From Flavobacteriales bacterium (GTDB lineage Bacteria > Bacteroidota > Bacteroidia > Flavobacteriales_F > PHOS-HE28), in contig JAHBUL010000002.1 of NCBI GenBank assembly GCA_019638085.1, forward strand, positions 62,001 through 126,000: a stretch of 64,000 nt of DNA. Direction: 5' to 3'. The translations under genes were made by a program, and so were the position numbers. The notes beneath the pieces are model-generated. The model saw nothing but the letters and a program-made list of their open reading frames with translations. It had not been told where the DNA came from and did no database searches. This document shows positions 11,017 to 27,646 of this stretch, in pieces (within the stretch, counting starts at the first letter, position 1; each line of letters opens with the position of its first letter).

Positions 11017-12303
11017 TCACATGTGATCATGGTCATGCCCCTTAGGCATGGCACCACCTTGCGGCGACATCATGCTGGGCGCGCCGCTCAATTGCGCTGC
11101 GGCATCCACGGTGAAGGTGCCGTGGACCACGATCTCTTCCCCTGCTTCCAGGCCGGAGGCGATCATCACATCATCGCCCATGGCGGCACCCAGCACCACC
11201 TCGCGCAAGCGGAACTGCCCTTCGCCCACACGGACGTACACCACCGAGCGCGGGCCGGTCCAGAGCACGGCCGTGCGTGGGACCACCAAGGCTTCAGTGT
11301 CTCCATGCCGGTGCTTCGCCTGCACGGTGCCGATGGCGAACATGCCCGGTTTCAACGTCCCTTGCGGATCGTTCAGCTCCACCCGGGCACGGGCCACACG
11401 CGTGGCGGGGTCCACCATGGGATCGATGAAGGTGATGCGGCCCCTGAAGGTCTTGCCGGGCAGGGAGCGCACGGTGAACTGGATCGTATCGCCCTTCCGC
11501 GTGCTGCCAAGGTCGCTCTCGTAGAGGTCGAACTGCACCCATAGCTGGCTCAGGTCAGCCACTTCGTAGAGCACATCGCCGCGCTTCAGGTAGTCCCCGA
11601 GATCGGTTTTCTTTTCCACTACCACACCGCTTACATCGGCCAGTATCGCGATCACGCCATTGGCTGTTCCCGCGGCTATGATCGCATCTATCTGTGCATC
11701 GCTCAGCTTCCAGTTGCGCAGCTTTCCACGTGCCGCGGCGTAGAGGTTCGGCTGCGCTTCACGCACGCGGTGGGCTTCCAGCATTTCCTCCTGCGCGGTC
11801 ACCATCTCGGGTGAGAACACGCGCGCAAGGGTCTGTCCTTTCTGTACGGACTCGCCGGTGAAGTTCACCAGTAGTTCCTCCACCCGCCCGGCCACGTGCG
11901 AGGCTTGTGCATACACGCGCCGCTCATCCGGCACCACCTTTCCGGTGAGGCGCAGGCTGCCCGTGCCTCCGCCCGTGCCCACCACCATGGTCTGCACGCT
12001 CGCGAGTTTCATGGCGTTCTCCGTCATGTGAACGGACATGGGGTCCATATCCTCATGCAGGGCTGCAAGGGGTATGAGGTCCATGCCACAGATGGGGCAG
12101 GAGCCGGGCTCGTTCATGCGGATCTGCGGGTCCATGGAGCAGGTCCATATCTGGCCCGTTTCACCATGGTTCTCGTGGGCCGCTGCGGATGATCCGGAAG
12201 GACCACCGCCGAAGAAGACCCTGCCGAGCAAGAGCCCTGCGATGAGGGCGATGCCGATAATGAACGGGGTGCGGTAACGGGAAAGGAAAGCGGGGATCTT
12301 CAT
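11017..12303 (-). CDS. cusB: Efflux RND periplasmic adaptor (CusB-type) with metal-binding domain
   Basis: A 428-residue membrane-fusion protein. It has an N-terminal signal/anchor helix, then a heavy-metal-binding domain (WTCSMDPQIRMNEPGSCPIC) ending GMDLIPL. Next come the barrel-sandwich and alpha-hairpin regions (GKVVPDERRVYAQASHVAGR, FSPEMVTAQEEMLEAHRV) and a beta-barrel (LWVQFDLYESDLGSTRKGD). The tail is Met/His-rich (KGHDHDHM), consistent with Cu or Ag handling. It overlaps copB by 4 nt. The cognate CusA and CusC genes are about 8 kb away, separated by the nucleotide operon; a decayed cusB copy lies next to cusC instead. Confidence 0.92.
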   Translation of the reverse strand: MKIPAFLSRYRTPFIIGIALIAGLLLGRVFFGGGPSGSSAAAHENHGETGQIWTCSMDPQIRMNEPGSCPICGMDLIPLAALHEDMDPMSVHMTENAMKLASVQTMVVGTGGGTGSLRLTGKVVPDERRVYAQASHVAGRVEELLVNFTGESVQKGQTLARVFSPEMVTAQEEMLEAHRVREAQPNLYAAARGKLRNWKLSDAQIDAIIAAGTANGVIAILADVSGVVVEKKTDLGDYLKRGDVLYEVADLSQLWVQFDLYESDLGSTRKGDTIQFTVRSLPGKTFRGRITFIDPMVDPATRVARARVELNDPQGTLKPGMFAIGTVQAKHRHGDTEALVVPRTAVLWTGPRSVVYVRVGEGQFRLREVVLGAAMGDDVMIASGLEAGEEIVVHGTFTVDAAAQLSGAPSMMSPQGGAMPKGHDHDHM

Positions 12304-14396
12304 GACCGTATGAGTTTAAGGCTTCGTTTGAGGAGTTGTGCATTAATGGCCACCACCACGGTGCTGAGCGTCATGAACACGGCACCAATAGCAGGGCTGA
12401 GAAGGAAGTCGAAAGAGTAGAGCACACCGGCCGCTAGCGGAATGGCAATGGCGTTGTAGCCCGTGGCCCATGCCAGGTTCTGGATCATCTTGCGGTAGGT
12501 GGCCTTGCCGAAGAGGATGAGCCCGAGGATATCGCGCGGCTCGCTCTTCACCAGGATGATGTCAGCGGTCTCCGCTGCCACGTCCGTTCCCGAACCCACT
12601 GCGATGCCCACATCGGCCTGGGCCAGCGCGGGGGCATCGTTCACGCCATCACCGGTCATCGCGACGAACTCACCTTTCGACTGAAGCTCCTTGATCAGTT
12701 CCACTTTCTGGTGTGGCAGTACTTCAGCATGGAAACCGTCCATGCCCAGTGCATCGCTTACTGCCTTGCCCACCTTGGCATTATCCCCCGTGGCCATATA
12801 GGTCTTGATGCCCTGCTTGCGGAATTGCTTGATCGCCTCGGCCGAACTTTCGCGTATGGCATCAGCCAAGGCGATGGACCCTGCAAACTTGCCGTCCACG
12901 ATCACATGGACCACAGTTTCAGCAGCCCCCGTGGAGCTTTCAGCAGGTATGGCGATGTTGTGCTCCTTCAAATAGCCCGGTGATACCACCGCTACTTCGC
13001 GGCCTTCAACGATGGCTTGCACCCCTTTCCCGGTGAGCGCTTCGAACTTCTCCGCAGCAGGGATCATGACCCCATCCTTCTTCGCACGCTCCATGATGCC
13101 ACCGGCGATGGGGTGTTCCGAATTCTGCTCCAAGGCTGCCGCAAATCGCAGCAATTCCGTTTCGTCCATTCCACCGGTGACGGGTGCGATGCGTGTCACT
13201 CCGAATTCACCTGTTGTGAGCGTGCCGGTCTTGTCGAAGACAATGGCTGTGATCTTCCGCGAGTTCTCGAACGCCGTCCGGTTTCGGATCAGCAAACCGT
13301 TCTTTGCGCTGATCGCTGTTGAGATGGCCACCACCAGGGGGATCGCAAGGCCCAATGCGTGTGGGCAGGAGATCACCATCACCGTCACCATACGTTCCAA
13401 CGCGAAGACGAATTCCTTTCCGAGCATCATCCAGATCGCCAGCGTGGCAAATCCGGCAAAGAGCGCGATGTAGGTGAGCCATTTTGCTGCTCGGTCCGCA
13501 AGGTGCTGGGTCTTGCTCTTGGTCTTCTGTGCCTCTTCCACCAGCGTGATCACCTTGTTCAGGTAACTGTCCTTGCCTGTATGTTCCACGATCACCTCCA
13601 AAGCACCGTTGCCGTTGATCGCACCTCCGATCACCTGTTGTCCCTTTCCCTTCTTCACCGGAACGGATTCGCCGGTGAGCATGCTTTCGTTCACGTTGCT
13701 CTCGCCTTTCTCGATCATCCCATCAGCAGGGATCTTCTCGCCCGGCCTTACCAGGATGCGGGCGCCGCGCTTCAGTTCCGCCAAGGGTATATCGCGCACT
13801 TGCCCGTTCTCGATCACGTGGGCCTCGGCAGGCATCAAGCTCACCAGCATCTGCAAGGACTTGGACGCACCAAGCACCGAGCGCATCTCGATCCAATGGC
13901 CGAGCAGCATGATGTCGATCAAGGTGACCAGTTCCCAGAAGAAGAGCGTGCCCCCCAAACCGAGCACGACCGCTGTACTGTATGCGTAGGCTACGGTGAT
14001 GGCCACGGCGATCAGCGTCATCATTCCCGGGGAAGCCGATCGGATCTCCGTGAACGCGCCTTTCAGGAAAGGCCACCCACCATGGAAATAGACCACGGAT
14101 GACAATGCGAGCAGCAGATACAAGCTCCCCGTGAACGAAATGGACAAGCCCAGGAATTCCTGGACCATTGGTGAGAGCAGCAGGACCGGGATGGTGAGCG
14201 CAAGCGAGACCCAGAACCGCTTGCGGAAGTCGGCGATCATCATGGCATGGTGATCGTGGCCGGCCATGCCGTGGGCAGGGTTGTGGCCGTTGTGCATGCC
14301 GCCATTTGCCGCATGAGCTGTGGGGCTGGCTGCGGACCCGTGTTGGTGATGATCGTGGTGTTCCATGTTGCTATTGAAGGTATTGGATGAACTCAT
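12300..14396 (-). CDS. copB: Copper-translocating P-type ATPase, CopB (P1B-3) type, copy 1
   Basis: A 698-residue pump. A His-rich N-terminus (MEHHDHHQHGSAAS, later HNPAHGMAGHDHH) replaces an HMA domain. The membrane metal site is SCPHALGLAIP (CPH rather than CPC), the P1B-3 signature. The phosphorylation site is VFDKTGTLTTGEFG, the ATP site EHPIAGG, and the hinge MTGDGVNDAPAL. The last helices have MTLSTVVVAINAQLL. It should export Cu. It is almost the same protein as the copy at 25586-27646. It overlaps cusB by ATGA; the start could be the Met of MEHHDHH (14366). Confidence 0.93.
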   Translation of the reverse strand: MSSSNTFNSNMEHHDHHQHGSAASPTAHAANGGMHNGHNPAHGMAGHDHHAMMIADFRKRFWVSLALTIPVLLLSPMVQEFLGLSISFTGSLYLLLALSSVVYFHGGWPFLKGAFTEIRSASPGMMTLIAVAITVAYAYSTAVVLGLGGTLFFWELVTLIDIMLLGHWIEMRSVLGASKSLQMLVSLMPAEAHVIENGQVRDIPLAELKRGARILVRPGEKIPADGMIEKGESNVNESMLTGESVPVKKGKGQQVIGGAINGNGALEVIVEHTGKDSYLNKVITLVEEAQKTKSKTQHLADRAAKWLTYIALFAGFATLAIWMMLGKEFVFALERMVTVMVISCPHALGLAIPLVVAISTAISAKNGLLIRNRTAFENSRKITAIVFDKTGTLTTGEFGVTRIAPVTGGMDETELLRFAAALEQNSEHPIAGGIMERAKKDGVMIPAAEKFEALTGKGVQAIVEGREVAVVSPGYLKEHNIAIPAESSTGAAETVVHVIVDGKFAGSIALADAIRESSAEAIKQFRKQGIKTYMATGDNAKVGKAVSDALGMDGFHAEVLPHQKVELIKELQSKGEFVAMTGDGVNDAPALAQADVGIAVGSGTDVAAETADIILVKSEPRDILGLILFGKATYRKMIQNLAWATGYNAIAIPLAAGVLYSFDFLLSPAIGAVFMTLSTVVVAINAQLLKRSLKLIRS

Positions 14397-14977: not shown

Positions 14978-16396
14978 TCAGGTGATGTTGATCCGTTCGT
15001 TCAACTTGGGCAGTTCAGCGTTCCAGCCGCGCTCCTCGAGCAATGCCTTCCTAAAGGCCTCCCGGGGAGCATCTTCACCATGCACGATGAAGACCTTGCC
15101 CGGTGCTTCCTTGATCAGCTCCGACCACCACAGCAGATCGTTCCGATCGCCGTGTGCGGAGAGCCCATTGATCTGCCGGACCTGCATCTTGAAGAGGACC
15201 TCCTTGCCATAGACCCGCAAGGTATCCGCCCCCTCCAAGAGGGCGCGGCCCTTGGTGCCTTCCGCCTGATAGCCTACGAACAGCAACGTATCGTTCGTGT
15301 TCGTGGAGCGGTATTCCAAGTAGTTCAGGATACGACCACCGGTCACCATGCCGCTGCCTGCTATCACGATCTTGGGTGCGTTGTCCGCACGTAATTGAAG
15401 GGTCTCCTTGTAGTGAGCGGTCCGTTGGAAGTAGGAGCAGATCCGTGTGCATTCCTCTTTATTCAGTTTATGCCATGCACGGGTATGATGGAAGACATCG
15501 AGCACGTTCACCCCCATGGGGCTATCGATGATCATGGGGACGCGTGGGATGCTACCCTCCTCCAGCAACTGCCAAAGCACCAGCATGATCAGCTGGGTCC
15601 GCTCCACGGCGAAACTGGGGATGAACAAACAGCCGCCGCGCGCGATCGTCTCGTTCACCACCTCCTTCAGCTGGGCCACGGTGGCTTCCATGGTGCCATG
15701 AGTGCGGTCACCATAGGTGGATTCGATGAGCAGTACATCGGCTCGTTCAGGGCGCTTCGGGGGAAAGAGCAGGATGTCCTCCTGCCGACCCACATCTCCG
15801 GAGAAGACGATCCGCTTGCCGGCGATATCCAATTCAATGAAGGTGGCACCTATGATATGGCCGACGTATTGGAACCTGGCCTTGATGGTATCGGACAACG
15901 CGTGCCATGCTCCTTCCTTCACTTCATGGAAGAGGGGCATGGTGCGGTCCACGTCCGCCAGATCATAGAGCGGCTGTGCTGGTTTATGCTTCGAATAACC
16001 TTCCCGGTTCGCACGTTCCGCGGTCTCTTCCTGGATCTTCGCGGTGTCCTTCAGGATGATGGTGGCGATCTCGATGGTCGGACCCGTGGCAAGGATCCGC
16101 CCACCGAATCCGGCCTTGACCAAGCGCGGCAGATAACCCACATGGTCCAAGTGGCCGTGGGTGAGCAACACCACGTCGATCGCCGGAATATCGACCGGAG
16201 GAGTTTCCCAATTCAGTGCACGGGAGTTGTGATCGCCCTGGAACAGGCCACAGTCCACCAGGACGTTCATGCCCGGCGTTCCCACCAGGTACTTGGACCC
16301 GGTGACCATGCCCGAGGCACCGAGGAATTGGATCGTAAGGCCGGCATCATTGCCCTTTTCACTGGCCCACGTTGCTTCCATGGAAGTATCTTTCAT
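14978..16396 (-). CDS. MBL-fold/beta-CASP ribonuclease-type metallohydrolase
   Basis: The protein is 472 residues from MKDTSMEATW; open Mets at 16426 and 16444 overlap the PRPP synthetase end. It has the metallo-beta-lactamase core (DCGLFQG, LLTHGHLDHVGYL, FSGDVGRQ), the beta-CASP insertion with ESTYGDR and VIAGSGMVTGGRILNYL, and the RNA-specificity C-terminus (QVRQINGLSAHGDRNDLL, VFIVHGE). The family includes RNases that cleave or trim RNA 5'-3'. It follows AMP phosphorylase and PRPP synthetase in one operon, so it may feed NMPs from RNA into salvage. Confidence 0.9.
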   Translation of the reverse strand: MKDTSMEATWASEKGNDAGLTIQFLGASGMVTGSKYLVGTPGMNVLVDCGLFQGDHNSRALNWETPPVDIPAIDVVLLTHGHLDHVGYLPRLVKAGFGGRILATGPTIEIATIILKDTAKIQEETAERANREGYSKHKPAQPLYDLADVDRTMPLFHEVKEGAWHALSDTIKARFQYVGHIIGATFIELDIAGKRIVFSGDVGRQEDILLFPPKRPERADVLLIESTYGDRTHGTMEATVAQLKEVVNETIARGGCLFIPSFAVERTQLIMLVLWQLLEEGSIPRVPMIIDSPMGVNVLDVFHHTRAWHKLNKEECTRICSYFQRTAHYKETLQLRADNAPKIVIAGSGMVTGGRILNYLEYRSTNTNDTLLFVGYQAEGTKGRALLEGADTLRVYGKEVLFKMQVRQINGLSAHGDRNDLLWWSELIKEAPGKVFIVHGEDAPREAFRKALLEERGWNAELPKLNERINIT

Positions 16397-16406
16397 TTGT
16401 GGGTGG

Positions 16407-17330
16407 TTAGTGTTGGGTTGGCTCATTTGATCGGTGTGGACCAACGGAAGACCGGGGTTTCAGGGCGCTTGTGATCAGGGCCGTGATATCGATCCCGTTC
16501 GAGGGATGCGGTATGGTGTTGCAGGTGATCACTTGCGCCGCACCAGCAGCCAGTAGGTCCGCGTAGGCCGTGCCAGCGAACACACCGTGGGTGCCCACAC
16601 AAACGGGTGCCTTCAAGCCCATCCGCTTCAGGTGCCCCACGGCTTCGATCATGGTGCGCGCGGTGGAGATGATGTCGTCCACCAGCACGGGCGTACGGTC
16701 CATGTAGCGATCGACCTCCGGCACGCTCACGCGGACATCGGCATCGCCCAAGCGGGTCTTATCGAGTACGGTGAAAGGAGCATCCGCGTCCCGCGCCACC
16801 TCTGAAACCCATTGCTCGCTCTCGTTATCGGGACCGATCAGCACCGGATCCTTCACGTTCGCCTTGATCCATGCCGAAACCAATGGGGCGGCAAGCAGCA
16901 CGGTACTCGGTATGCTGTAGATCTCCGCAAGTGAACTGCGGCGGTGCAGGTGTGGATCGATCGTAATCAAGCCATCGGTAAAGGAGGACAGAAGCTTCGC
17001 GAAGTAAACCGAGGTGACCGCTTCGCCCGGCTTGAAGACCGTGTCCTGCCGCATGTAGGACAGGTAAGGGGCGACCAAGCGAACGCTTACGGCACCAAGG
17101 TCCTTCAGCACCCGGCAGAGGTAGAGGAGCGGCAAGAGCTTCCCGTCCGGACGGTGCAATGTGCAGACCACGATGGCCTCCATGCCCTTCACCTCGGACA
17201 CGACCCGTATATACGATTCGCCATCTGGAAATTGGCGCATGGAGAGTTCACCGTGCGTTGCCCCGATCGCTTGAGCGAGTTGGTCCGCCAGTAATTCATT
17301 GCCCGGTAGGCAGAAGATCATCATGCTCAT
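16407..17330 (-). CDS. Ribose-phosphate pyrophosphokinase (archaeal-like PRPP synthetase)
   Basis: A 307-residue protein with FPDGESYIRV, the ATP/ribose loop RQDTVFKPGEAVTS, LITIDPHLHRRSSL, the flexible-loop Lys/Arg (LDKTRLGDADVRV) and the PRPP-binding VLVDDIISTARTMIEA motif. It makes PRPP from ribose-5-phosphate and ATP, or runs in reverse to yield ribose-5-phosphate and ATP. A housekeeping PrsA would normally lie elsewhere, so this is likely a second, pathway-specific copy. Its start is 1 bp beyond the end of the AMP phosphorylase gene. Confidence 0.9.
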   Translation of the reverse strand: MSMMIFCLPGNELLADQLAQAIGATHGELSMRQFPDGESYIRVVSEVKGMEAIVVCTLHRPDGKLLPLLYLCRVLKDLGAVSVRLVAPYLSYMRQDTVFKPGEAVTSVYFAKLLSSFTDGLITIDPHLHRRSSLAEIYSIPSTVLLAAPLVSAWIKANVKDPVLIGPDNESEQWVSEVARDADAPFTVLDKTRLGDADVRVSVPEVDRYMDRTPVLVDDIISTARTMIEAVGHLKRMGLKAPVCVGTHGVFAGTAYADLLAAGAAQVITCNTIPHPSNGIDITALITSALKPRSSVGPHRSNEPTQH

Positions 17331-17331
17331 G

Positions 17332-18849
17332 TCAGTCGTATTGGATGGTTCCGTTCTCCTGCTTCATGTAAGCGATGGCGTAGTCGAGTTCGCCTTGTGC
17401 CTCTGCGTGCATGGTGAACAACAGGTCTCCCTTCCGGATGCTCCTGCCGATCGGCGCATGAAAGCGGATGCCCGCAGTTGGAGCTGTTGGCGCCCCCGCC
17501 AGTTTCGCAATACGGGCGAGGCGCCGGTTATCCACCGAGTGTACGACACCATCGTGATCCGCCAGCACATCGTACCGGTGCGGTGCCTCACCCGGTTCCG
17601 TGAAACCGCCCTGAGCCGCGCAAATGGCCAAGAATTTCTTCAACGCTTCCCCGCTGTCCAGGATCGTGCGGGCCTTCTCGTTTCCTGATCCCGCAGTGCA
17701 TTTGCCCGCCATTTCCAACATGACCCCGGCCAGGGTGAGCGCTCTATCACGCAGGTCGAGCGGTGCGTCCTTGTCGTTCCGAAGCACGGCCAGCACATCC
17801 TGCGCCTCCAGCGCCGGGCCGATGCCCCGGCCCACCGGTTGGCTCCCATCGGAGTAAATGATGCGAATTTGAAGACCGATCACCCGTGCCACAGCGTCCA
17901 TGCGTTTCCCAATATCCCGTGCCTCTTTCTGCGAGCGCACTTTCGCCGTTGTGCCGACCGGTATATCGATCACCACATGGGTCGAACCCGCCGCCACCTT
18001 CTTGGACAACACCGAGGCGATCAGCTGGCCCACACTATCGATGTCGAGCGCTTTTTCCACCGCGATCAGGATGTCGTCCGCCGGGCTCAGGTCTGCTGCA
18101 CCACCCCAAGCAATGCATCCGCCTTCTTGAACGACCACCCGGCGTATAAGCTCCAGGTCAAGGTCCACCGGGGCCATGGTCTCCATCGCATCGGCCGTCC
18201 CCGCGGGGGAAGTGATCGCGCGCGAAGAGGTTTTGGGTATGGTCAGCCCTGCGGCTGCTGCGATGCTCACAACGATGGGCGTGGTACGATTCCCGGGCAG
18301 GCCTCCCACGCAATGTTTGTCCATGATGGGACCGGGACCCCAGGTCAATCGCTTGCCGCTTGCGATCATGGCCTCGGTCAGTGCGACGATCTCGTTCTCA
18401 TTGAGCCGGTCTCCGGCACATGCGACCAGGAAAGCGGCGAGCTCGATGTTGGAATAGCGACCAGCGGTCACGTCGGTGATGATCGCCTCAAGGTCACCAG
18501 CGCTCAACTCGCTGCCGTACATCTTGGCACGCACGAAGCCCAAGGAAGTGATGGGAACGAGGTGGTCCACGGTGATCGTGTCGTCCGCTTTGGCCCCCAG
18601 TCTTCGGAAAGCTTCGAGCGAGAGGCCGGCCTCACCTTGGGCCAGCAATTCGGAATGGACCACGTTCAACGTCGCGATGATGCTTTTGGCTCCATGACCT
18701 ACCACGAGCCGAGTGAGCGCGGAGAATCCTTCCGAGCGGCAGATGTGGCAATCGGCCCGCATGTAAATGATGTTCTCACGGTACGTATCGATACCCATCG
18801 ACCGCAGCACGAGTTCGTTCCCGGGTGCTGTTTCTTTTTCCGAATTCAT
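17332..18849 (-). CDS. AMP phosphorylase (thymidine phosphorylase family, archaeal-type)
   Basis: A 505-residue protein, the length of archaeal AMP phosphorylases. It has the extra ~80-residue N-terminal domain, then the catalytic segments DKHCVGGLPGNRTTPIV and KTSSRAITSPAGTADAME, which distinguish AMP phosphorylase from thymidine phosphorylase. The family converts AMP (or CMP, UMP) plus phosphate to base plus ribose-1,5-bisphosphate. The ATG at 18849 is chosen because it overlaps the ATP-cone gene stop by 4 nt; a longer frame from 19077 reads through that gene. No RuBisCO or ribose-1,5-bisphosphate isomerase is visible in the window. Confidence 0.9.
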   Translation of the reverse strand: MNSEKETAPGNELVLRSMGIDTYRENIIYMRADCHICRSEGFSALTRLVVGHGAKSIIATLNVVHSELLAQGEAGLSLEAFRRLGAKADDTITVDHLVPITSLGFVRAKMYGSELSAGDLEAIITDVTAGRYSNIELAAFLVACAGDRLNENEIVALTEAMIASGKRLTWGPGPIMDKHCVGGLPGNRTTPIVVSIAAAAGLTIPKTSSRAITSPAGTADAMETMAPVDLDLELIRRVVVQEGGCIAWGGAADLSPADDILIAVEKALDIDSVGQLIASVLSKKVAAGSTHVVIDIPVGTTAKVRSQKEARDIGKRMDAVARVIGLQIRIIYSDGSQPVGRGIGPALEAQDVLAVLRNDKDAPLDLRDRALTLAGVMLEMAGKCTAGSGNEKARTILDSGEALKKFLAICAAQGGFTEPGEAPHRYDVLADHDGVVHSVDNRRLARIAKLAGAPTAPTAGIRFHAPIGRSIRKGDLLFTMHAEAQGELDYAIAYMKQENGTIQYD

Positions 18850-19757
18850 AGGTCCATGCCTTGTTCCTTGTTCGACCTTGTCCCGTTTCTTGTTCGGTCC
18901 GCATTCCCGTGTACCGGACCACAGAGTTCCTCCACTTCCTTGAGGACTTTGGCAACTTTGCCTGCGGCAACACCAGCGCGACCAAGGATCTGGACATCTT
19001 CCCTTATCTCTGCGCACAGCACCGTACCGGCGTCCAGGATCCGCTGCTTTTCCGCTTTCGTCAGGGTGGTGAGGCAAGTGATCGGGTGAAGCCCACTACG
19101 GTCGATCCGCTCTCGAAGGCTATCGTCCTGCGGATGGTTCCAGCTCAGCAGGTACAACCCAACACACTCCCCATATTGCACGGCATCGGAAGTGAAGCGC
19201 GTGTTGGTCACTAACCAGCCCTGATGGAAAATGGTCCCGTGGCCGGGGATCGCCTTCCATTGCCGTTCCACATCCGTGAAGCGCGCCTGGATGTACAGCG
19301 GGACCTTCACATCGCATTTGCGTTTCGGATCACTGTGGAACTTACACTCCACCATGAAGTGATGATCTCCCTTCTCGGCCACCACATCCACCTCGTGGTC
19401 CACGCATTTGCCGGGTACGATCACATCGACAGTGGTCCGGTAGCCTTGGTGGGCGAGCAACGCACCCACAAATTTCTCGAACGGAAAGCCTGTAGGCCCC
19501 AGTTCCAGGATGGCTTGCTTCAAGGAGTACCGACCAGCCGTACCCCGCGATCGCTTACGCAAGGACCGGTATGCAATCTTGTAGATCTCCCGTGTCCTCA
19601 TGCCCACGCGCAATGATCTTTTCACCTCGTGTACCACTCGCTCGATATCCGCTTCCTGCGCACCGGCGCGTTCCAAGGACGCACGCAACTTGGAGGGGGC
19701 GAAGACATCCATTTCGCCGTTGGCGCGTTCGATCAATATGGCTGACCGCTCCTTCAT
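18846..19757 (-). CDS. ATP-cone domain plus restriction endonuclease-like protein
   Basis: A 303-residue protein. The first ~90 residues form an ATP-cone (VFAPSKLRASLERAGA, VRTREIYKIAYRSL-type helices), the allosteric nucleotide sensor known from ribonucleotide reductases. The middle has a Mrr/PD-(D/E)XK-like core: FVGALLAHQGYRT, then HEVDVVAEKGDHHFMVECKF, with D and ExK residues. It ends with a low-complexity tail. This could sense ATP/ADP and cut nucleic acid in response. It overlaps AMP phosphorylase by ATGA downstream and a 43-residue membrane gene by ATGA upstream. Longer Mets at 19811 and nearby are possible. Confidence 0.8.
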   Translation of the reverse strand: MKERSAILIERANGEMDVFAPSKLRASLERAGAQEADIERVVHEVKRSLRVGMRTREIYKIAYRSLRKRSRGTAGRYSLKQAILELGPTGFPFEKFVGALLAHQGYRTTVDVIVPGKCVDHEVDVVAEKGDHHFMVECKFHSDPKRKCDVKVPLYIQARFTDVERQWKAIPGHGTIFHQGWLVTNTRFTSDAVQYGECVGLYLLSWNHPQDDSLRERIDRSGLHPITCLTTLTKAEKQRILDAGTVLCAEIREDVQILGRAGVAAGKVAKVLKEVEELCGPVHGNADRTRNGTRSNKEQGMDL

Positions 19758-19885
19758 GCTTTCCCGCCTTCCTCGGTGCCACTCATGTTGTAGAACCATG
19801 CAATACAACAAACTGTATAGAGCAATGCTCCGGTAAAGCCGAAGGCTAATCCTGTTTGGTTCACGTTCATGGTTTCCATGTTCAT
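19754..19885 (-). CDS. 43-residue single-helix membrane protein, DUF5676-like
   Basis: A short frame encoding MNMETMNVNQTGLAFGFTGA followed by LLYTVCCIAWFYN and a charged end (GTEEGGKA). The GLAFGFTGALLY segment matches the first helix of the DUF5676 protein at 5971-6240 (GLACGTTGALLY). Its stop overlaps the ATG of the ATP-cone gene as ATGA, strong evidence that it is a real, coupled first gene of the operon. It is too short for most gene callers. Function unknown. Confidence 0.65.
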   Translation of the reverse strand: MNMETMNVNQTGLAFGFTGALLYTVCCIAWFYNMSGTEEGGKA

Positions 19886-20151
19886 TGGTTGTAACGGCTA
19901 ACAGTGAGCACAGGCATTTTACGCCGTTCGCTTTTCCCGCTGAGATGACCGCATCGATCTGTGCATCGGCCAGCTTTCAGTTGGGCAAGCTTCCCCGCGC
20001 CGTAGTGATCGGGACGCTGAGCATGCGCTGCTCCCCGCACTGATGTGGTGTTGTACTTGCTTTGAAGCATCTGCGGGTGGTGGTCCGGTACGCCCTTTGC
20101 GCCCCGGACCGATCTCATCTGGTTAGTGGCTGGTGAATGTGGCGGTTGGCC
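19886..20151 (-). pseudogene. Decayed cusB remnant and flanking non-coding sequence
   Basis: Bases 19920-19973 read on the minus strand encode LADAQIDAVISAGKANGV, matching LSDAQIDAIIAAGTANGV in the intact CusB at 11017-12303. The preceding part (GKL..., to about 20010) matches CusB GKLRNWKL in nucleotide sequence but is shifted by one base, so it is frameshifted. Only a ~100-bp core is recognisable; the rest of this stretch is unalignable by eye. Its position after cusA-cusC and the metal-binding lipoprotein is where an RND operon would carry cusB. Confidence 0.7.
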
Positions 20152-20412
20152 TTACTTCACCTCCTTCAGGTTCATTTTGCATACGGGGCATTTTCCCGCT
20201 TCTGCATAGGTTTTTTCGCCCTCGCACTTCATGGGGCATTGGTACACCCCGGCGTGCTCTTCATGCATGTGGTCCGTGCTGTCGCTGTGCATGTGCTCCT
20301 GTGGGGCAGTACCCTTTTCCGTGGTCACTTCCTCGCTGGAGCTTCCGCAGGCACTGAATGCGATCAGCGCGAAGGCCATCAGGCCGGTCTTGAACATGTT
20401 GGTCGTCTTCAT
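20152..20412 (-). CDS. Heavy-metal-binding lipoprotein
   Basis: An 86-residue protein with a lipoprotein signal ending in the lipobox-like FSAC (ALIAFSACGSSS). It has a His-rich linker (EHMHSDSTDHMHEEH) and a C-terminal metal-binding domain (YQCPMKCEGEKTYAEAGKCP then VCKMNLKEV), the same type as in CusB. Probably a periplasmic copper-binding partner of the RND pump. It lies 44 bp after the end of cusC, in the same direction. Confidence 0.85.
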   Translation of the reverse strand: MKTTNMFKTGLMAFALIAFSACGSSSEEVTTEKGTAPQEHMHSDSTDHMHEEHAGVYQCPMKCEGEKTYAEAGKCPVCKMNLKEVK

Positions 20413-20456: not shown

Positions 20457-21689
20457 TTAGGGCCTCACGATCTGCTTGGCCGTGAGGTATTCGAGTTCGG
20501 CAATGGCGGTGTGATGCTCGCGCATGGCGGAGAGCCGCAAGAGCTGGAAGCGCAACACTTGTTCCTGCATGCGCAGCACTTCCTCCAGGTCGTCGCCGCT
20601 GTTGCTGTACGCGTCCAGCAGCAGGTCCAGCGCTTGCTTGGCAATGCCGATCTGCTGGTCCATCAGGCCCACATCGAGCGCGGCCTTGTGTGCTTCAAAA
20701 TAGGCCGTTTCGTATGCGCTGCCCAGTTCGTTCGCGGTCTGTTGCCGCATCGCTTGCACGGCCTGCTCCAAGCCCTGCGCTTCCTCCACCGCGCTCCGGT
20801 ATTTCTTGCGATGGATCGGCAGGCTCAGGCTTACCATGGGCATTACTTCGCTGCCGCTCATGCCCGGCATCATCATGGGCGAATTCTTATCCATCACCAT
20901 GTATTCCACGCCGAGCCCGAAGCGCGGCAGGCCCATCTTGCGGGCTGCCTCGGCCTGTGCCATTTCAACCGATGCTTGGCGGTCCAGTTCGCTCAGGCGG
21001 GGGTTGTGCTCCAGGCTGTCGGTGGTATAGTTGGCCAGGTCCACGAGCTGCAACGTGTCGCTCACGTCCACGAGCACCGGGTCGGCATAGCCCACAGTGC
21101 TGGCGAAGGTGGCCTGCAAGGGCTTGCGCCGTTCTTCGAGGATCGCGATGTCGTTCTCTTCGGCGTTGATCAGGAGGTCGATGCGCAACACGTCCACCAT
21201 GCTTCCGTCGCCGCCTTTGAAACGGGCCAAGGCGAATGTTTTGTAGCTGCGCAGGATGGCGAGGTCATTCTGTGCAATGGCGATGGCACGCCCCAGCTCA
21301 TGCAGCGGGTAGTAGGCCACGCGCACCTTGTAGAAGAGTTCGTTCCGCGCGCTGAGGTAAGCCTCGTAACGTGCCTCGGCCTGGCGGTCGGCCACTTCCG
21401 CTTGCGCACCCAACGTACCGAACCAAGGGAACATCTGCATCAGGGAGAAGCGCGCCCGTTCAGCGTTCATCATCTTTTCCGACGGAGTAAGGGAGACGCC
21501 CATCGTGAGCGTTGGGTCGGGCAAGCCCCGGACTTGAGCGGAGCGCTTCAGTGCCGCTTCGAATTCTGCGTACCGCGCTTGCACCGCCGGGTTCAGTTCC
21601 GCAGCAGCTCGCAGGTGCGCATCCAAGTCCTGCGCATGTGCTTGCGACAGCGCGAAGGAGCAGAGGAAAAGCAGGAGGATCGTTCTCAT
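20457..21689 (-). CDS. cusC: TolC-family outer-membrane efflux protein (CusC-type)
   Basis: A 410-residue protein with an N-terminal signal peptide (LLLFLCSFALSQAHAQ) and the repeated alpha-helical hairpins of TolC-like factors (AELNPAVQARYAEFEAALKR; MFPWFGTLGAQAEVADRQAE). The length fits a short Bacteroidota CusC. Its ATG overlaps the stop of cusA (ATGA), so it is coupled to the pump. Confidence 0.88.
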   Translation of the reverse strand: MRTILLLFLCSFALSQAHAQDLDAHLRAAAELNPAVQARYAEFEAALKRSAQVRGLPDPTLTMGVSLTPSEKMMNAERARFSLMQMFPWFGTLGAQAEVADRQAEARYEAYLSARNELFYKVRVAYYPLHELGRAIAIAQNDLAILRSYKTFALARFKGGDGSMVDVLRIDLLINAEENDIAILEERRKPLQATFASTVGYADPVLVDVSDTLQLVDLANYTTDSLEHNPRLSELDRQASVEMAQAEAARKMGLPRFGLGVEYMVMDKNSPMMMPGMSGSEVMPMVSLSLPIHRKKYRSAVEEAQGLEQAVQAMRQQTANELGSAYETAYFEAHKAALDVGLMDQQIGIAKQALDLLLDAYSNSGDDLEEVLRMQEQVLRFQLLRLSAMREHHTAIAELEYLTAKQIVRP

Positions 21690-24600
21690 GGCTTGTTGCG
21701 TTGGATCCGCCGTTCCATACGTGCGCTGTAGAGCACGGGAACAACGAAAATGGTGATCAATGCCACGGCCATTCCACCGAAGGATGGGATCGCCATGGGC
21801 ACCAGGATATCGGCGCCGCGACCTGTGGAAGTGAGTACGGGGAGCAATGCGATCAAGGTGGTGGCGGTGGTCATCAGCGCTGGGCGCACGCGCTTCTTGC
21901 CTGCGGAAACCACGGCCGCACGAATGCCCTTGCGATCATCCGTGGGCATTTTCTCAAAGTTCTGGTCCAGGTAGGTGGCCATGAGCACACCGTCGTCCGT
22001 GGCAATGCCGAAGAGCGCGATGAAGCCAACCCACACGGCCACGCTCAGGTTCACCGTATGCATCTGGAACAGCTCCCGCAGGTTCACGCTTGCGATGTCC
22101 ACATTGAGGAACCAATGCTGCCCGTACAGCCAGAGCATCAGGAAGCCACCGGCGAAGGCGACCGCGATACCCGAGAACACCATGAGCGAGGTGGCGACCG
22201 AACGGAACTGGAAATAAAGGATCAGGAAGATGATGACCAACACCAAGGGCACCACGATGGAGAGCCGCTTCTCCGCACGTACCTGGTTCTCGTAGCTGCC
22301 TGAGAAGCGGTAGTTCACCCCGGCAGGCACCGTGAGTTCCCCCTTGTCGATCCGTTCCTGGATGGCATGTTGCGCGGCTTCCACCACGTCCACTTCTGCC
22401 TGATCCTCTCTCTTGTCGAAGAGCACATAGCCCACCAGGAAGGTGTCCTCGCTCTTGATCATCTGGGGGCCGCGTTCGTATTCCACATGGACCAGTTCGC
22501 CCAGCGGCACCTGCACGCCGGTAGGGGTAGGTACCAGGATGCGTGCGATCGCCTCCGGTGTATCGCGCAGCTCGCGCGGGTAGCGCACGCGCACCGGGTA
22601 GCGCTCCCGCCCTTCCACGGTGGTGGTGTTGGTCATGCCGCCGATCGCTGTTTCGATGGTGCCTTGCAGATCCTCCACGGTCAAGCCATAGCGACCGATG
22701 GCCTGGCGGTCGATGCGCAGATGCAGGTAGGGTTTGCCAACGATCCGATCGGCAAAGACCGCTTCGGCCTTCACGCCCGGCACTTCCTTCAAGATGCTTT
22801 CCAGCTCGCGACCGAAGGCCTCGATGGTAGGCAGGTCCGGGCCGAAGACCTTGATGCCCATGGGCGCGCGCATGCCGGTCTGCAGCATCACCAAGCGCGT
22901 TTCGATCGGTTGCAGCTTGGGCGCGGAGGTGACGCCGGGCAGCTTGGTGGCCTGCACTATTTCATCCCAGATATCATCGGTCTTTGTGATGTGCGCCCGC
23001 CAGTTGCGGAAGTAGCGCCCGTTGGTACTGGGGATCAATGTGCGGCGGTCGAAGGTGGGTGTGAGCGCTTCCAGCTGTGTAACGGTATCGCCCGTGGTGA
23101 GGATGAAGCGATCGTCATCATCCACTTTGAAGGCCTGTCGATGGCCTTTCTCGTCCACCTCGTACTCCGGCCGGTAGTTGATGATGTTCTCGTACATGCT
23201 GATGGGCGCGGGATCCAGCGCGGTCTCCGCACGGCCCAGCTTGCCCACCACCATTTCCACCTCCGGGATCGCGGCCACGCGCATGTCCAGCTGTTTCACC
23301 ACCTCCGTGTTCTGTTCCACACCTGCATGCGGCATGCTGGTGGGCATCAGCAGGAAGCTGCCTTCGTCCAGCGAGGGCATGAACTCCTTGCCCACGCCGG
23401 GGAAGGCGTGTGCCATGGTGCTCCAGGGAGCGGTGCGCTGGATGTTCCAGCCCGCCTTGTTGGCCAAGGATGAGACCGGGGAGAAGATGCGCCCGAACCC
23501 CAACCAGATCATCACGCCGAAGAGCACGATGAAGAAGGGTATGGAAAGGAAGGCCGCCTTGTGGTTGAGGCACCAGCGCAGAATGCGTTCGTAATAATGT
23601 TGGATCGCTTGGAAGAGGCCGAGTATCAGACCGATCCACGTGCCTACGAACAGGAAGTTCGTGAAGAGCGATCGCTCCACGCCCAAGGGCCGCCAGAGCT
23701 CAGCGAGCAACCAGGCCGCAGCGATGATGATCACCACCAGGGGAAGGTTCTTGATCCAGACGTTGTCGCTCTCGCTGCGGTCCACCACCACATGTGCGGC
23801 GAACAAGGCGAGCAAGGTGGCCCCGGCCCAGAATTGCCCGAAGGCCAAGGCGACGATGCCGCCCACCAGCATCAGAGCACGCAGGGTGATGCGCGTCCAC
23901 CGCTTGCGACCATCCACACCGAACACCATTTGGATCAGGGAGGGGAGGATGAACAAGGCCACGAGCGCCGCAGCCAGCAAGGCGAACGATTTGGTGAAGG
24001 CGAGCGGCCGGAACAGTTTCCCTTCCGCAGCTTGCAGGGTGAAGACCGGGATGAAGCTGACCACGGTGGTGCTCACGGCCGTGAGGATGGCCGAGCCCAC
24101 TTCCGCGGAAGCCTTGTAGACCACATCGAACAGTTTGCTGCGGCCCTTGTCGTCGTCCATGTGCCGCAGCACGTTCTCCGAGAGGATGATGCCTAGGTCG
24201 ATCATGGTGCCGATGGCGATGGCGATGCCGGAAAGCGCCACGATGTTCGCATCCACATGGAAGTAGCGCATGGCAATGAAGACCATGAGCACGGCGATGG
24301 GCAACAGCGATGCGATGATGAGCGAGGTGCGCAGCTCCACCACCATGATCAGGATCACCAGGATGGTGACGAGGATCTCCAAGGACAGCGCTTCCTCCAA
24401 GGTGCCGAGCGTTTCGTGGATCAGCTGGGTGCGATCGTAGAAGGGCACGATGGTGAGCTGGCTTCGGGTGCCATCGGCCAATACCTTGGAAGGCAGGCCC
24501 GGTGCGATCTGGGCGATCTTCTCCTTCACGGCCTCGATGGTCGCCAGCGGGTTGGCGCCGTAGCGTGCGATCACCACGCCGCCGGCCACTTCGGCCCCGC

Positions 24601-25486
24601 CCTTGTCCAGCAGGCCGCGCCGCGTGGCGGGCCCCAGCGTTACGTGGGCCACGTCCTTCACGCGCAAGGGCACATTGTCGTGCACGCTGACCACCGCTTG
24701 TTCGAGGTCCTCGATCGAGCGGATGTAACCGAGGCCGCGCACGAGGTATTCCACCTGGTTCACCTCGATCGTCTGCGCGCCCGCATCGCGGTTGCTCTTC
24801 TGCACGGCGAGCATCACCTCGTTCAGCGGGATGTTGAAGGCCTTGAGCGCCTCGGGGTCCACATCCACCTGGTACTCCTGCACCATGCCCCCGATGGAGG
24901 CCACTTCGCTGACGCCCTCCACGCCGTTCAGCGCATACTTCACCAGAAAATCCTGGGCGGTGCGCGTTTCGTTCAGGTCCCATCCCCCGGTCACGTTCCC
25001 TTGCGGGTCGCGGCCTTCCAGCGTATACCAATAGACCTGCCCCAGTGCCGTGGCATCGGGGCCCAGCGCCGGTTGCACCCCATCCGGCAGCAGATTGGCC
25101 GGTAGTGCATTCAGCTTTTCCAGGATCCGCGAACGCGACCAGTAGAACTCCACGTCCTCATCGAAGAGCACGTAGATGCTGGAGAAACCGAAGACCGACG
25201 AACTGCGGATGGACTTCACGCCCGGTATGCCCAGCAAACTGGTGGTGAGCGGATAGGTCACCTGGTCCTCGATGTCCTGCGGCGAACGGCCCGGCCAGTC
25301 CGTGAAGACGATCTGCTGGTTCTCCCCGATGTCAGGGATGGCATCCACCGCCACCGGGTCCTTCGGCAAGGACCCGAGGTCCCAGCCGAAAGGCGCGGTG
25401 ACCAGCCCCCAGCCGACAAGCAAGAGCAACAGCAGCACCGTCACCAGCTTGTTCGCGAGGAAATAATGAATGAGCTTGTTCAACAT
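21686..25486 (-). CDS. cusA: CusA/CzcA heavy-metal efflux RND transporter
   Basis: A 1,266-residue RND pump. It has the N-terminal helix (LIHYFLANKLVTVLLLLLL), two porter regions, and the HME-RND proton-relay segment IAIAIGTMIDLGIILSENV with Asp. The C-terminal helices include MTTATTLIALLPVLTSTGRG and FVVPVLYSARMERR. It is about 200 residues longer than E. coli CusA because extra hydrophobic helices are inserted after the first transmembrane group (about residues 530-690, e.g. LPLVVIIIAAAWLLAELWRP), a layout seen in some Bacteroidota pumps. It should export Cu(I)/Ag(I) or other divalent metals with CusC and a CusB. It overlaps cusC by ATGA. Confidence 0.93.
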   Translation of the reverse strand: MLNKLIHYFLANKLVTVLLLLLLVGWGLVTAPFGWDLGSLPKDPVAVDAIPDIGENQQIVFTDWPGRSPQDIEDQVTYPLTTSLLGIPGVKSIRSSSVFGFSSIYVLFDEDVEFYWSRSRILEKLNALPANLLPDGVQPALGPDATALGQVYWYTLEGRDPQGNVTGGWDLNETRTAQDFLVKYALNGVEGVSEVASIGGMVQEYQVDVDPEALKAFNIPLNEVMLAVQKSNRDAGAQTIEVNQVEYLVRGLGYIRSIEDLEQAVVSVHDNVPLRVKDVAHVTLGPATRRGLLDKGGAEVAGGVVIARYGANPLATIEAVKEKIAQIAPGLPSKVLADGTRSQLTIVPFYDRTQLIHETLGTLEEALSLEILVTILVILIMVVELRTSLIIASLLPIAVLMVFIAMRYFHVDANIVALSGIAIAIGTMIDLGIILSENVLRHMDDDKGRSKLFDVVYKASAEVGSAILTAVSTTVVSFIPVFTLQAAEGKLFRPLAFTKSFALLAAALVALFILPSLIQMVFGVDGRKRWTRITLRALMLVGGIVALAFGQFWAGATLLALFAAHVVVDRSESDNVWIKNLPLVVIIIAAAWLLAELWRPLGVERSLFTNFLFVGTWIGLILGLFQAIQHYYERILRWCLNHKAAFLSIPFFIVLFGVMIWLGFGRIFSPVSSLANKAGWNIQRTAPWSTMAHAFPGVGKEFMPSLDEGSFLLMPTSMPHAGVEQNTEVVKQLDMRVAAIPEVEMVVGKLGRAETALDPAPISMYENIINYRPEYEVDEKGHRQAFKVDDDDRFILTTGDTVTQLEALTPTFDRRTLIPSTNGRYFRNWRAHITKTDDIWDEIVQATKLPGVTSAPKLQPIETRLVMLQTGMRAPMGIKVFGPDLPTIEAFGRELESILKEVPGVKAEAVFADRIVGKPYLHLRIDRQAIGRYGLTVEDLQGTIETAIGGMTNTTTVEGRERYPVRVRYPRELRDTPEAIARILVPTPTGVQVPLGELVHVEYERGPQMIKSEDTFLVGYVLFDKREDQAEVDVVEAAQHAIQERIDKGELTVPAGVNYRFSGSYENQVRAEKRLSIVVPLVLVIIFLILYFQFRSVATSLMVFSGIAVAFAGGFLMLWLYGQHWFLNVDIASVNLRELFQMHTVNLSVAVWVGFIALFGIATDDGVLMATYLDQNFEKMPTDDRKGIRAAVVSAGKKRVRPALMTTATTLIALLPVLTSTGRGADILVPMAIPSFGGMAVALITIFVVPVLYSARMERRIQRNKP

Positions 25487-25585: not shown

Positions 25586-27646
25586 TCATGATCGCAAGAG
25601 GTTGAGGTTGCGTTTGAGCAGTTGTGCATTAATGGCCACCACCACGGTGCTGAGCGTCATGAAGACCGCACCGACGGCAGGGCTCAGCAGGAAGTCGAAG
25701 GAGTAGAGCACTCCGGCGGCTAATGGTATGGCAATGGCGTTGTAGCCGGTGGCCCATATCAGGTTCTGGATCATCTTGCGGTAGGTTGCCTTGCCGAAGA
25801 GGATGAGCCCGAGGATATCGCGCGGATCGCTCTTCACCAGGATGATGTCAGCGGTCTCAGCGGCGACATCCGTTCCTGAACCCACGGCGATGCCCACATC
25901 GGCCTGGGCCAGTGCGGGTGCATCATTCACGCCGTCACCTGTCATGGCCACGAACTCACCTTGGTTCTGGAATGACTTGATGAGGTTCACCTTCATATCT
26001 GGCAGTGCCTCCGAGAGGTATCCATCCAGCCCGAGTGTATCACTTACCGCCTTGGCAACCCGTTCATTGTCACCCGTGGCCATATAGGTCTTGATGCCCT
26101 GCTTGCGGAACTGCGCGATCGCTTCGGCTGAGCTTTCGCGAATGGCATCAGCCAACGCGATGGATCCGACGAGCTTGCCGTCCACCATTACATATACCAC
26201 GGTTTCAGCAGCAGCGAAAGCACCTTCAGCTGGTACTGCGATGCCTTTCTCTTGCAAGTAGCCCGGTGATACCACGGCCACCTCACGGCGCTGTACAATG
26301 GCCTGCACTCCTTTGCCCGTTATCGCTTGGAACTTCTCCGCAGCAGGTATGGTAAGCCCCTCCTTCTTCGCGCGTTCCATGATGCCCCCGGCGATCGGAT
26401 GTTCCGAGTTCTGCTCCAGTGCAGCGGCGAGCCGCAATAATTCCATCTCGTTCATTCCTCCTGGTAAGGGTGCGATACGCGTCACACCGAACTCTCCCGT
26501 AGTAAGCGTGCCGGTCTTGTCGAAGACGATGGCTGTGATCTTCCGCGAGTTCTCGAAGGCCGTCCGGTTGCGGATCAGCAATCCGTTCTGTGCGCTGATC
26601 GCCGTGGAGATGGCCACCACCAAGGGGATCGCAAGGCCCAAGGCGTGCGGGCAGGAGATCACCATCACCGTTACCATCCGCTCCAGGGCGAATACGAATT
26701 CCTTGCCCACCATCAGCCAGATCGCCAACGTGGCAAAGCCGGTAAAGAGCGCGATGTAGGTGAGCCACTTCGCCGCCCGGTCCGCCAGGTGCTGGGTCTT
26801 GCTCTTGGTCTTCTGGGCCTCTTCCACCAGTGTGATCACCTTGTTCAGGTAACTGTCCTTGCCGGTATGTTCCACGATCACCTCCAAGGCCCCGTTGCCG
26901 TTGATCGCACCGCCGATCACCTGTTGTCCTTTCCCCTTCTTCACAGGAACGGATTCTCCAGTGAGCATGCTTTCGTTCACGTTGCTCTCGCCTTTTTCGA
27001 TCACCCCATCAGCAGGGATCTTCTCGCCCGGCCTCACCAGGATGCGGGCACCGCGCTTCAGTTCCGCCAAGGGTATATCGCGCACTTGCCCGTCCTCCAA
27101 CAAGTGGGCCTCGGCAGGCATCAGGCTCACCAGCAGCTGCAAGGACTTGGACGCGCCAAGTACCGAGCGCATCTCGATCCAATGGCCCAGCAACATGATC
27201 ACGATCAAGGTGACCAGCTCCCAGAAGAAGAGCGTGCCTTCCAGGCCGAACACGACCGCCGAACTGTATGCGTAGGCCACGGTGATGGCCACGGCGATCA
27301 GCGTCATCATGCCCGGGGAAGCCGAATGGATCTCCGTGAACGCGCCTTTCAGGAAAGGCCAGCCACCGTGGAAGTAGACCACGGACGACAAGGCGAACAG
27401 GAGATACATGCTCCCCGGGAACACGATGGAAAAACCCAGGAACTGCTGCACCATCGGTGAGAGCATCAATACCGGCACGGTAAGCACGAGCGAGATCCAG
27501 AACCGCTTACGGAAGTCGGCGATCATCATGGCATGATGGTCATGGCCGTCCATGCCATGCGGAGGATCGTGACCCTCCGCCATTCCGCTATGAGCAGCGG
27601 GGTCAGTGGGGCTGGCTGCGGATCCGTGTTGGTGGTGCTGTTTCAT
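25586..27646 (-). CDS. copB: Copper-translocating P-type ATPase, CopB (P1B-3) type, copy 2
   Basis: A 686-residue pump nearly identical in protein and DNA to the copy at 12300-14396, diverging mainly in the N-terminal His-rich stretch (MKQHHQHGSAASPTDPA) and scattered positions. It has SCPHALGLAIP, VFDKTGTLTTGEFG, EHPIAGG and MTGDGVNDAPAL. It is followed after ~100 bp by cusA. Two close copies 11 kb apart in direct orientation form long homologous repeats. Confidence 0.93.
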   Translation of the reverse strand: MKQHHQHGSAASPTDPAAHSGMAEGHDPPHGMDGHDHHAMMIADFRKRFWISLVLTVPVLMLSPMVQQFLGFSIVFPGSMYLLFALSSVVYFHGGWPFLKGAFTEIHSASPGMMTLIAVAITVAYAYSSAVVFGLEGTLFFWELVTLIVIMLLGHWIEMRSVLGASKSLQLLVSLMPAEAHLLEDGQVRDIPLAELKRGARILVRPGEKIPADGVIEKGESNVNESMLTGESVPVKKGKGQQVIGGAINGNGALEVIVEHTGKDSYLNKVITLVEEAQKTKSKTQHLADRAAKWLTYIALFTGFATLAIWLMVGKEFVFALERMVTVMVISCPHALGLAIPLVVAISTAISAQNGLLIRNRTAFENSRKITAIVFDKTGTLTTGEFGVTRIAPLPGGMNEMELLRLAAALEQNSEHPIAGGIMERAKKEGLTIPAAEKFQAITGKGVQAIVQRREVAVVSPGYLQEKGIAVPAEGAFAAAETVVYVMVDGKLVGSIALADAIRESSAEAIAQFRKQGIKTYMATGDNERVAKAVSDTLGLDGYLSEALPDMKVNLIKSFQNQGEFVAMTGDGVNDAPALAQADVGIAVGSGTDVAAETADIILVKSDPRDILGLILFGKATYRKMIQNLIWATGYNAIAIPLAAGVLYSFDFLLSPAVGAVFMTLSTVVVAINAQLLKRNLNLLRS

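Follow-up and report, generated by a model that had tools for sequence, protein, structure and literature searches.

What would a bacterium do with ribose-1,5-bisphosphate (R15P) if the enzymes by which archaea consume it were missing from its genome? This question is raised by a row of genes on the minus strand of a 64,000-nucleotide stretch (the window) of the Flavobacteriales bacterium contig JAHBUL010000002.1, in which an RNase gene is joined to the genes of a nucleoside 5'-monophosphate (NMP) phosphorylase and a homologue of phosphoribosyl pyrophosphate (PRPP) synthetase. The answer that we favor, and to which we give about an even chance, is a mobile stress operon whose products convert RNA to pentose phosphate that the cell can use. 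Release of 5'-NMPs from RNA would fall to the beta-CASP RNase, perhaps together with an ATP-cone nuclease, the phosphorylase would convert NMP and phosphate (Pi) to base and R15P without spending ATP, and the PRPP-synthetase-like paralogue would then handle R15P or ribose phosphate. The pentose would pass through isomerase and epimerase to phosphoketolase, and acetyl-phosphate would feed acetate kinase, so that ATP could still be made by substrate-level phosphorylation once low oxygen or copper poisoning stops respiration, with the ATP cone possibly gating the process.

The gene row and its RNA- and nucleotide-handling proteins

Upon inspection of the open reading frames (ORFs) and their junctions, all members of the row were found near the coordinates noted earlier (Table 1). 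The 43-residue ORF overlaps the ATP-cone gene by 4 bp (ATGA, at 19757) and the ATP-cone gene overlaps the phosphorylase gene in the same manner (at 18849), the phosphorylase and PRPP-synthetase-like genes are 1 bp apart, the next junction, to the metallo-beta-lactamase (MBL) RNase gene, is a gap of 10 bp or an overlap depending on an ambiguous start, and the MBL and YceI-fold genes are again 1 bp apart. The first-pass annotation had described a tight operon with overlaps or small gaps and had named its genes, and both the layout, with 4-bp overlaps and gaps of 1 to 10 bp, and the identities are borne out by the junctions and by family matches. The range that it gave, 14978-19885, ends short of the YceI-fold gene. 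This gene set is not a chance grouping because the MBL, phosphorylase and PRPP-synthetase-like genes remain linked across phyla.

The phosphorylase passed both NF003338 and TIGR02645 (1.1e-175) in NCBIfam, and its closest match in a search of PDB sequences was the archaeal enzyme 4ga5 (E=2.7e-99), with which it has GG-LPGN and SSRAITSxAGTAD in common. The nucleoside-phosphorylase motifs GG-V-GD and SGRGLGHTGGT, seen upon alignment with pyrimidine-nucleoside phosphorylases, are not present in it. Since the NMP-type motifs are shared with 4ga5 and SGRGLGHTGGT is absent, the enzyme likely acts on nucleotides despite its public name 'thymidine phosphorylase', and the earlier label AMP phosphorylase holds in the sense of an archaeal-type NMP phosphorylase. 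The sequence suggests that its product in this organism would be R15P. On a Pacificitalea plasmid (L038:7314-9440) one protein, encoded next to nadC, combines a PhnN/guanylate-kinase-like domain with an NMP-phosphorylase-like one, a fusion that links such phosphorylases to R15P.

In the RNase the MBL, Beta-Casp and RMMBL domains and the HxHxDH motif (as HGHLDH) are all present, and it is closest to TTHA0252 (E=8.6e-70), which it matches over nearly its full length; unlike that RNase type, it lies in an operon with an NMP phosphorylase. The ATP-cone protein matched Mrr_cat at E=1.4e-8 (35.3 bits against a cut-off of 21), and the nuclease residues E122, D124 and E137-C-K139, that is the D..ExK pattern, are invariant in 14 homologues. 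Its ATP-cone match covers nearly the full profile but is sub-threshold (23.5 bits, E=8.5e-5; gathering score 25.8), as is that to AF1548_C (E=9.7e-4), and phmmer against PDB sequences gave AF1548 (1y88) at E=6.9e-32. This protein is 55% identical to a copy on a Criblamydia plasmid.

What had been called a small membrane protein is indeed a membrane ORF, now refined to a DUF5676 protein of which the N-terminal portion alone is left, as it matches the first 23 positions of PF18926; in two copies, on Paracoccus and Roseovarius plasmids, a full-length DUF5676 gene lies directly upstream of the MBL RNase gene. The YceI-fold protein had no family match in Pfam or NCBIfam, and the label YceI-like was upheld at the level of the fold by an AlphaFold model (pLDDT 80.5) that matched YceI structures (1y0g, 3q34 and others) in Foldseek with E=1.4e-6 to 6.8e-4 and prob 1.00.

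The altered PRPP-synthetase homologue and the fate of R15P

The NMP phosphorylase has substrate-site motifs in common with that of the archaeal pentose bisphosphate pathway of Thermococcus kodakarensis, but the window genome differs in having neither R15P isomerase nor RuBisCO, and the window operon differs in joining RNase and PRPP-synthetase-like genes to a phosphorylase of the PRK04350 subfamily. The haloarchaeal non-carboxylating pentose bisphosphate pathway (PMC9700705) also has an R15P node without RuBisCO, but it uses the R15P isomerase. Neither RuBisCO nor an R15P isomerase (IF-2B) was found in the genome, which is about 99% complete, and control searches were positive, so that the absence of the archaeal partners, noted before for the window, now extends to the whole genome. 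The E. coli PhnN route from R15P to PRPP is likewise a consumer of R15P, and a PhnN-type domain is part of the Pacificitalea fusion, but PhnN was rejected as the sink in this genome, where it has a sub-cut-off match only.

The sink had been called open. The archaeal sink is absent, but a candidate is now present, namely a phosphoketolase-acetate kinase set. The genome has one phosphoketolase, on the operon's own contig and about 23 kb from it, where it seems to form an operon with acetate kinase, a class-I fructose-bisphosphate aldolase and an RpiB::histidine-phosphatase (His_Phos) fusion, with a PPK2 gene nearby. Among 19 plasmid copies viewed that have an NF003338-type phosphorylase (a count that leaves out L038, with the fusion, and L050, which has no PRPP-synthetase-like gene), 7 have a phosphoketolase or phosphoketolase-like gene in or beside the operon. 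Such a gene is within the row in the alphaproteobacteria Ciceribacter, Novosphingobium, Paracoccus AK26 and Shinella and adjoins it in Legionella, Criblamydia and Paracoccus sediminicola. Divergent phosphoketolase-like proteins, about 23% identical to true phosphoketolases, are annotated as 'xylulose 5-phosphate 3-epimerase' at L040:10445-12901, L044:4257-6626, L077:4180-6567 and L080:4242-6626. In the window genome the RpiB::histidine-phosphatase fusion (L059:5008-6246) precedes the aldolase, phosphoketolase and acetate kinase genes. It was rejected as a specific R15P phosphatase because none of the other 57 relatives searched has the fusion and its phosphatase part is linked to phosphoketolase/aldolase genes on plasmids outside the listed operon carriers. 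PPK2 follows the RNase-YceI pair directly in three close relatives (L016/L063, L017 and L033/L064), whereas in the window genome it is near the phosphoketolase set and not after that pair.

The PRPP-synthetase homologue retains the RQD loop, the K-R flexible loop and the DD ribose-phosphate loop, and its AlphaFold model has an ordinary fold (Z ~32 to PRPP synthetases). The PDxG glycine of the canonical pyrophosphate (PP) loop, however, is not there: G170 is replaced by Glu in 30 of 30 aligned homologues, in which 'DPHLHR' with a 3-residue insert, W174, D196 and N278 are also fixed, and GPDxES occurs in all 18 plasmid homologues, that of Bradyrhizobium included. Because the PP-loop change is fixed and a separate canonical PRPP synthetase (L068) is present elsewhere in the genome, plain PRPP making is doubtful and the name archaeal-like PRPP synthetase does not stand as first given. 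The paralogue may be no ordinary PRPP maker; it looks changed enough for a reaction so far undescribed, perhaps the transfer of a single phosphate between R15P and AMP/ADP.

Distribution, mobility and metal islands

The operon is accessory in its genus. A phosphorylase over the cut-off was present in 3 of 35 same-genus genomes (G000, which is the window genome, G007 and G013), in 4 of 58 relatives and in 3 of 395 Bacteroidota, and the same three of the latter have the PRK07199 paralogue. The block of MBL, phosphorylase and PRPP-synthetase-like genes recurs in several gene orders in Bacteroidota, in Criblamydia (Chlamydiota) and in alpha-, beta- and gammaproteobacteria, and thus the genes do not lie apart in all relatives, the finding that would have told against the operon proposed earlier. 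In Bacteroidota loci the block is often accompanied by the ATP-cone gene and a P-type ATPase. In plasmid records the phosphorylase was found in 105 at E<=1e-100, of which 46 were called conjugative. In the 40 records common to both lists of hits shown, which are samples of the hits, the distance between the phosphorylase and PRPP-synthetase-like genes was at most 150 bp in 33 and at most 6 kb in 39, and one record had them 37 kb apart. These neighborhoods repeatedly include genes for copper ATPases and multicopper oxidases as well as universal stress genes, gene order varies between plasmid copies, and some have no RNase or no PRPP-synthetase homologue. This is, then, a mobile operon common to distant bacteria, often in copper/heavy-metal islands and often on conjugative plasmids.

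In the window, genes for copper efflux lie on both sides of the row (Table 1). Upstream of it is a cusB remnant that has 79% DNA identity over 82 bp (11654-11735) to the intact cusB on the other side of the operon, which shows that the metal island was rearranged. TolC-like and CusA-type homologues adjoin the operon in the same order in L016 and L063. A second copper-type P-ATPase at 25586-27646 is 87% identical to the one beside the YceI-fold gene.

Table 1. Genes of the operon and of its flanks in the window
Feature	Coordinates	Strand	Support
ORF of 43 aa, single transmembrane segment, truncated DUF5676 membrane protein	19754..19885	-	Pfam PF18926 E=0.012
ATP-cone + Mrr-type PD-(D/E)xK nuclease + AF1548-like C domain, 303 aa	18846..19757	-	Pfam, phmmer
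Archaeal-type nucleoside 5'-monophosphate (AMP) phosphorylase, 505 aa	17332..18849	-	NF003338 4.6e-200
PRPP-synthetase homologue, subfamily PRK07199, PP loop altered (GPDNES), 307 aa	16407..17330	-	NF005537 4.8e-118
Beta-CASP MBL RNase with HGHLDH and RMMBL, 472 aa	14978..16396	-	Pfam, PDB sequence search
YceI-fold protein, likely signal peptide (by eye), 183 aa	14425..14976	-	AlphaFold + Foldseek
cusB remnant with in-frame stop, upstream of operon	19905..20000	-	tblastn 62.5% over 32 aa, E=6e-9
Copper-type P-ATPase, flank	12300..14396	-	Pfam
CusB-type adaptor, flank	11017..12303	-	Pfam
Small protein with heavy-metal-binding domain (HMBD), flank	20152..20412	-	Pfam PF19335
TolC-like, flank	20457-21689	-	ORF, named by eye
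CusA-type RND (resistance-nodulation-division) pump, flank	21686-25486	-	ORF, named by eye

Rival readings and meaning

For the soybean symbiont Bradyrhizobium diazoefficiens, an expression table in PMC6515984 lists bll3115 (MBL), bll3116 (ribose-phosphate pyrophosphokinase) and bll3117 (thymidine phosphorylase family) at 0.5% O2 with protein log2 fold changes (FC) of 2.9, 4.4 and 2.1 and transcript FC of 15.4, 7.7 and 5.1, respectively. Like the core of the window operon these are three same-named, adjacent genes, here co-induced and known as rows of that table. The phosphoketolase bll2518 is also up in microoxia in the same table, in protein and transcript, and neither it nor bll3115-3117 is marked there as a FixK2 target.

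Several observations weigh against an operon that turns RNA into pentose phosphate. The phosphorylase scored 478 bits on TIGR03327 (2.8e-143), below the equivalog cut-off of 535 bits, and we therefore infer its product and substrate range and name it archaeal-type NMP phosphorylase-like and not an equivalog; an activity for this subfamily was not found in the literature searched. The step from R15P to ribose 5-phosphate (R5P) is missing, and the other three operon carriers among the 58 relatives have no phosphoketolase, which is therefore not an obligate sink. The ATP-cone gene, whose product may provide gating, is absent from nearly all plasmid-borne copies, in records that are mostly proteobacterial. 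The Bradyrhizobium genes are matched to the operon by name alone. No clear enrichment of FNR/FixK boxes was found upstream, where 2 of 19 copies scored above background (2.1% expected per 300 bp; L029, with no upstream sequence, left out) and the window copy did not. Finally, the position in a metal island may be hitch-hiking.

That last point is taken furthest by the view that the genes are passengers in a metal-resistance island and serve unrelated functions of a housekeeping type. The cusB remnant and the copper ATPases that flank the operon on both sides fit this view, but the core block is kept outside such islands and across phyla, as in Bradyrhizobium, where it sits among stress genes, and we consider it improbable. 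Still more improbable is a defense or nucleotide-depletion module in which the nuclease, the RNase and an NMP-destroying enzyme stop the infected cell. It would account for the Mrr-type nuclease and the mobile location, but PADLOC gave weak matches for the nuclease only and none for the other operon proteins, and for this reason identity as a defense system was rejected; the frequent copper efflux, universal stress and phosphoketolase neighbors and the microoxic induction listed for the same-named genes in PMC6515984 also speak against it.

The remaining alternatives turn on the PRPP-synthetase homologue. In a PRPP cycle, an ordinary PRPP synthetase (R5P + ATP -> PRPP + AMP) and the phosphorylase (AMP + Pi -> adenine + R15P) would recycle bases and ribose; this would adjust adenylate pools and exchange bases during stress, while RNA underwent no net breakdown. 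The two genes are tightly paired and AMP is the product of one enzyme and the substrate of the other, but the cycle has no need of the RNase and phosphoketolase genes, the PP-loop change stands against it and L068 already supplies PRPP capacity; we hold it to be possible but doubtful. Alternatively, the homologue, its PP loop closed by Glu, would move a single phosphate (R15P + AMP <-> R5P + ADP, or with ADP/ATP). This is a sharper form of the RNA-to-pentose explanation and compatible with it: the energy of the N-glycosidic bond would be saved and R5P delivered, the step that is missing before phosphoketolase. The fixed substitutions, the retained RQD and K-R catalytic motifs and the canonical enzyme elsewhere in the genome argue for it; on the other hand the loops of archaeal class III enzymes vary already at neighboring positions, and the overall fold is that of an ordinary PRPP synthetase. 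We rate it unlikely. Rather unlikely, too, is the full proposal of a new, horizontally spread route by which ribose from RNA would be fermented when oxygen or metals put the cell under stress, in which the paralogue would pass the 1-phosphate of R15P to AMP/ADP, giving R5P for phosphoketolase as well as ATP.

The gene families are ordinary and their mobile combination is uncommon. Beyond the expression table of PMC6515984, the literature searched, in which subscription journals are thinly covered, gave no account of the operon as a system, and PMC11252147, on PRPP synthetase as a valve for phosphoketolase in Methylorubrum, does not mention a phosphorylase. The interest of the RNA-to-pentose operon lies in the fate of R15P and in the altered paralogue. 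As several carriers are cultured strains and conjugative plasmids bear some of the copies, an RNA-salvage pathway with neither RuBisCO nor R15P isomerase is directly testable. It could explain the same-named 'thymidine phosphorylase/ribose-phosphate pyrophosphokinase/MBL' genes listed as microoxia-induced in a rhizobium, it suggests that such thymidine phosphorylases and PRPP synthetases are systematically misannotated, and it ties metal-resistance islands to energy salvage.

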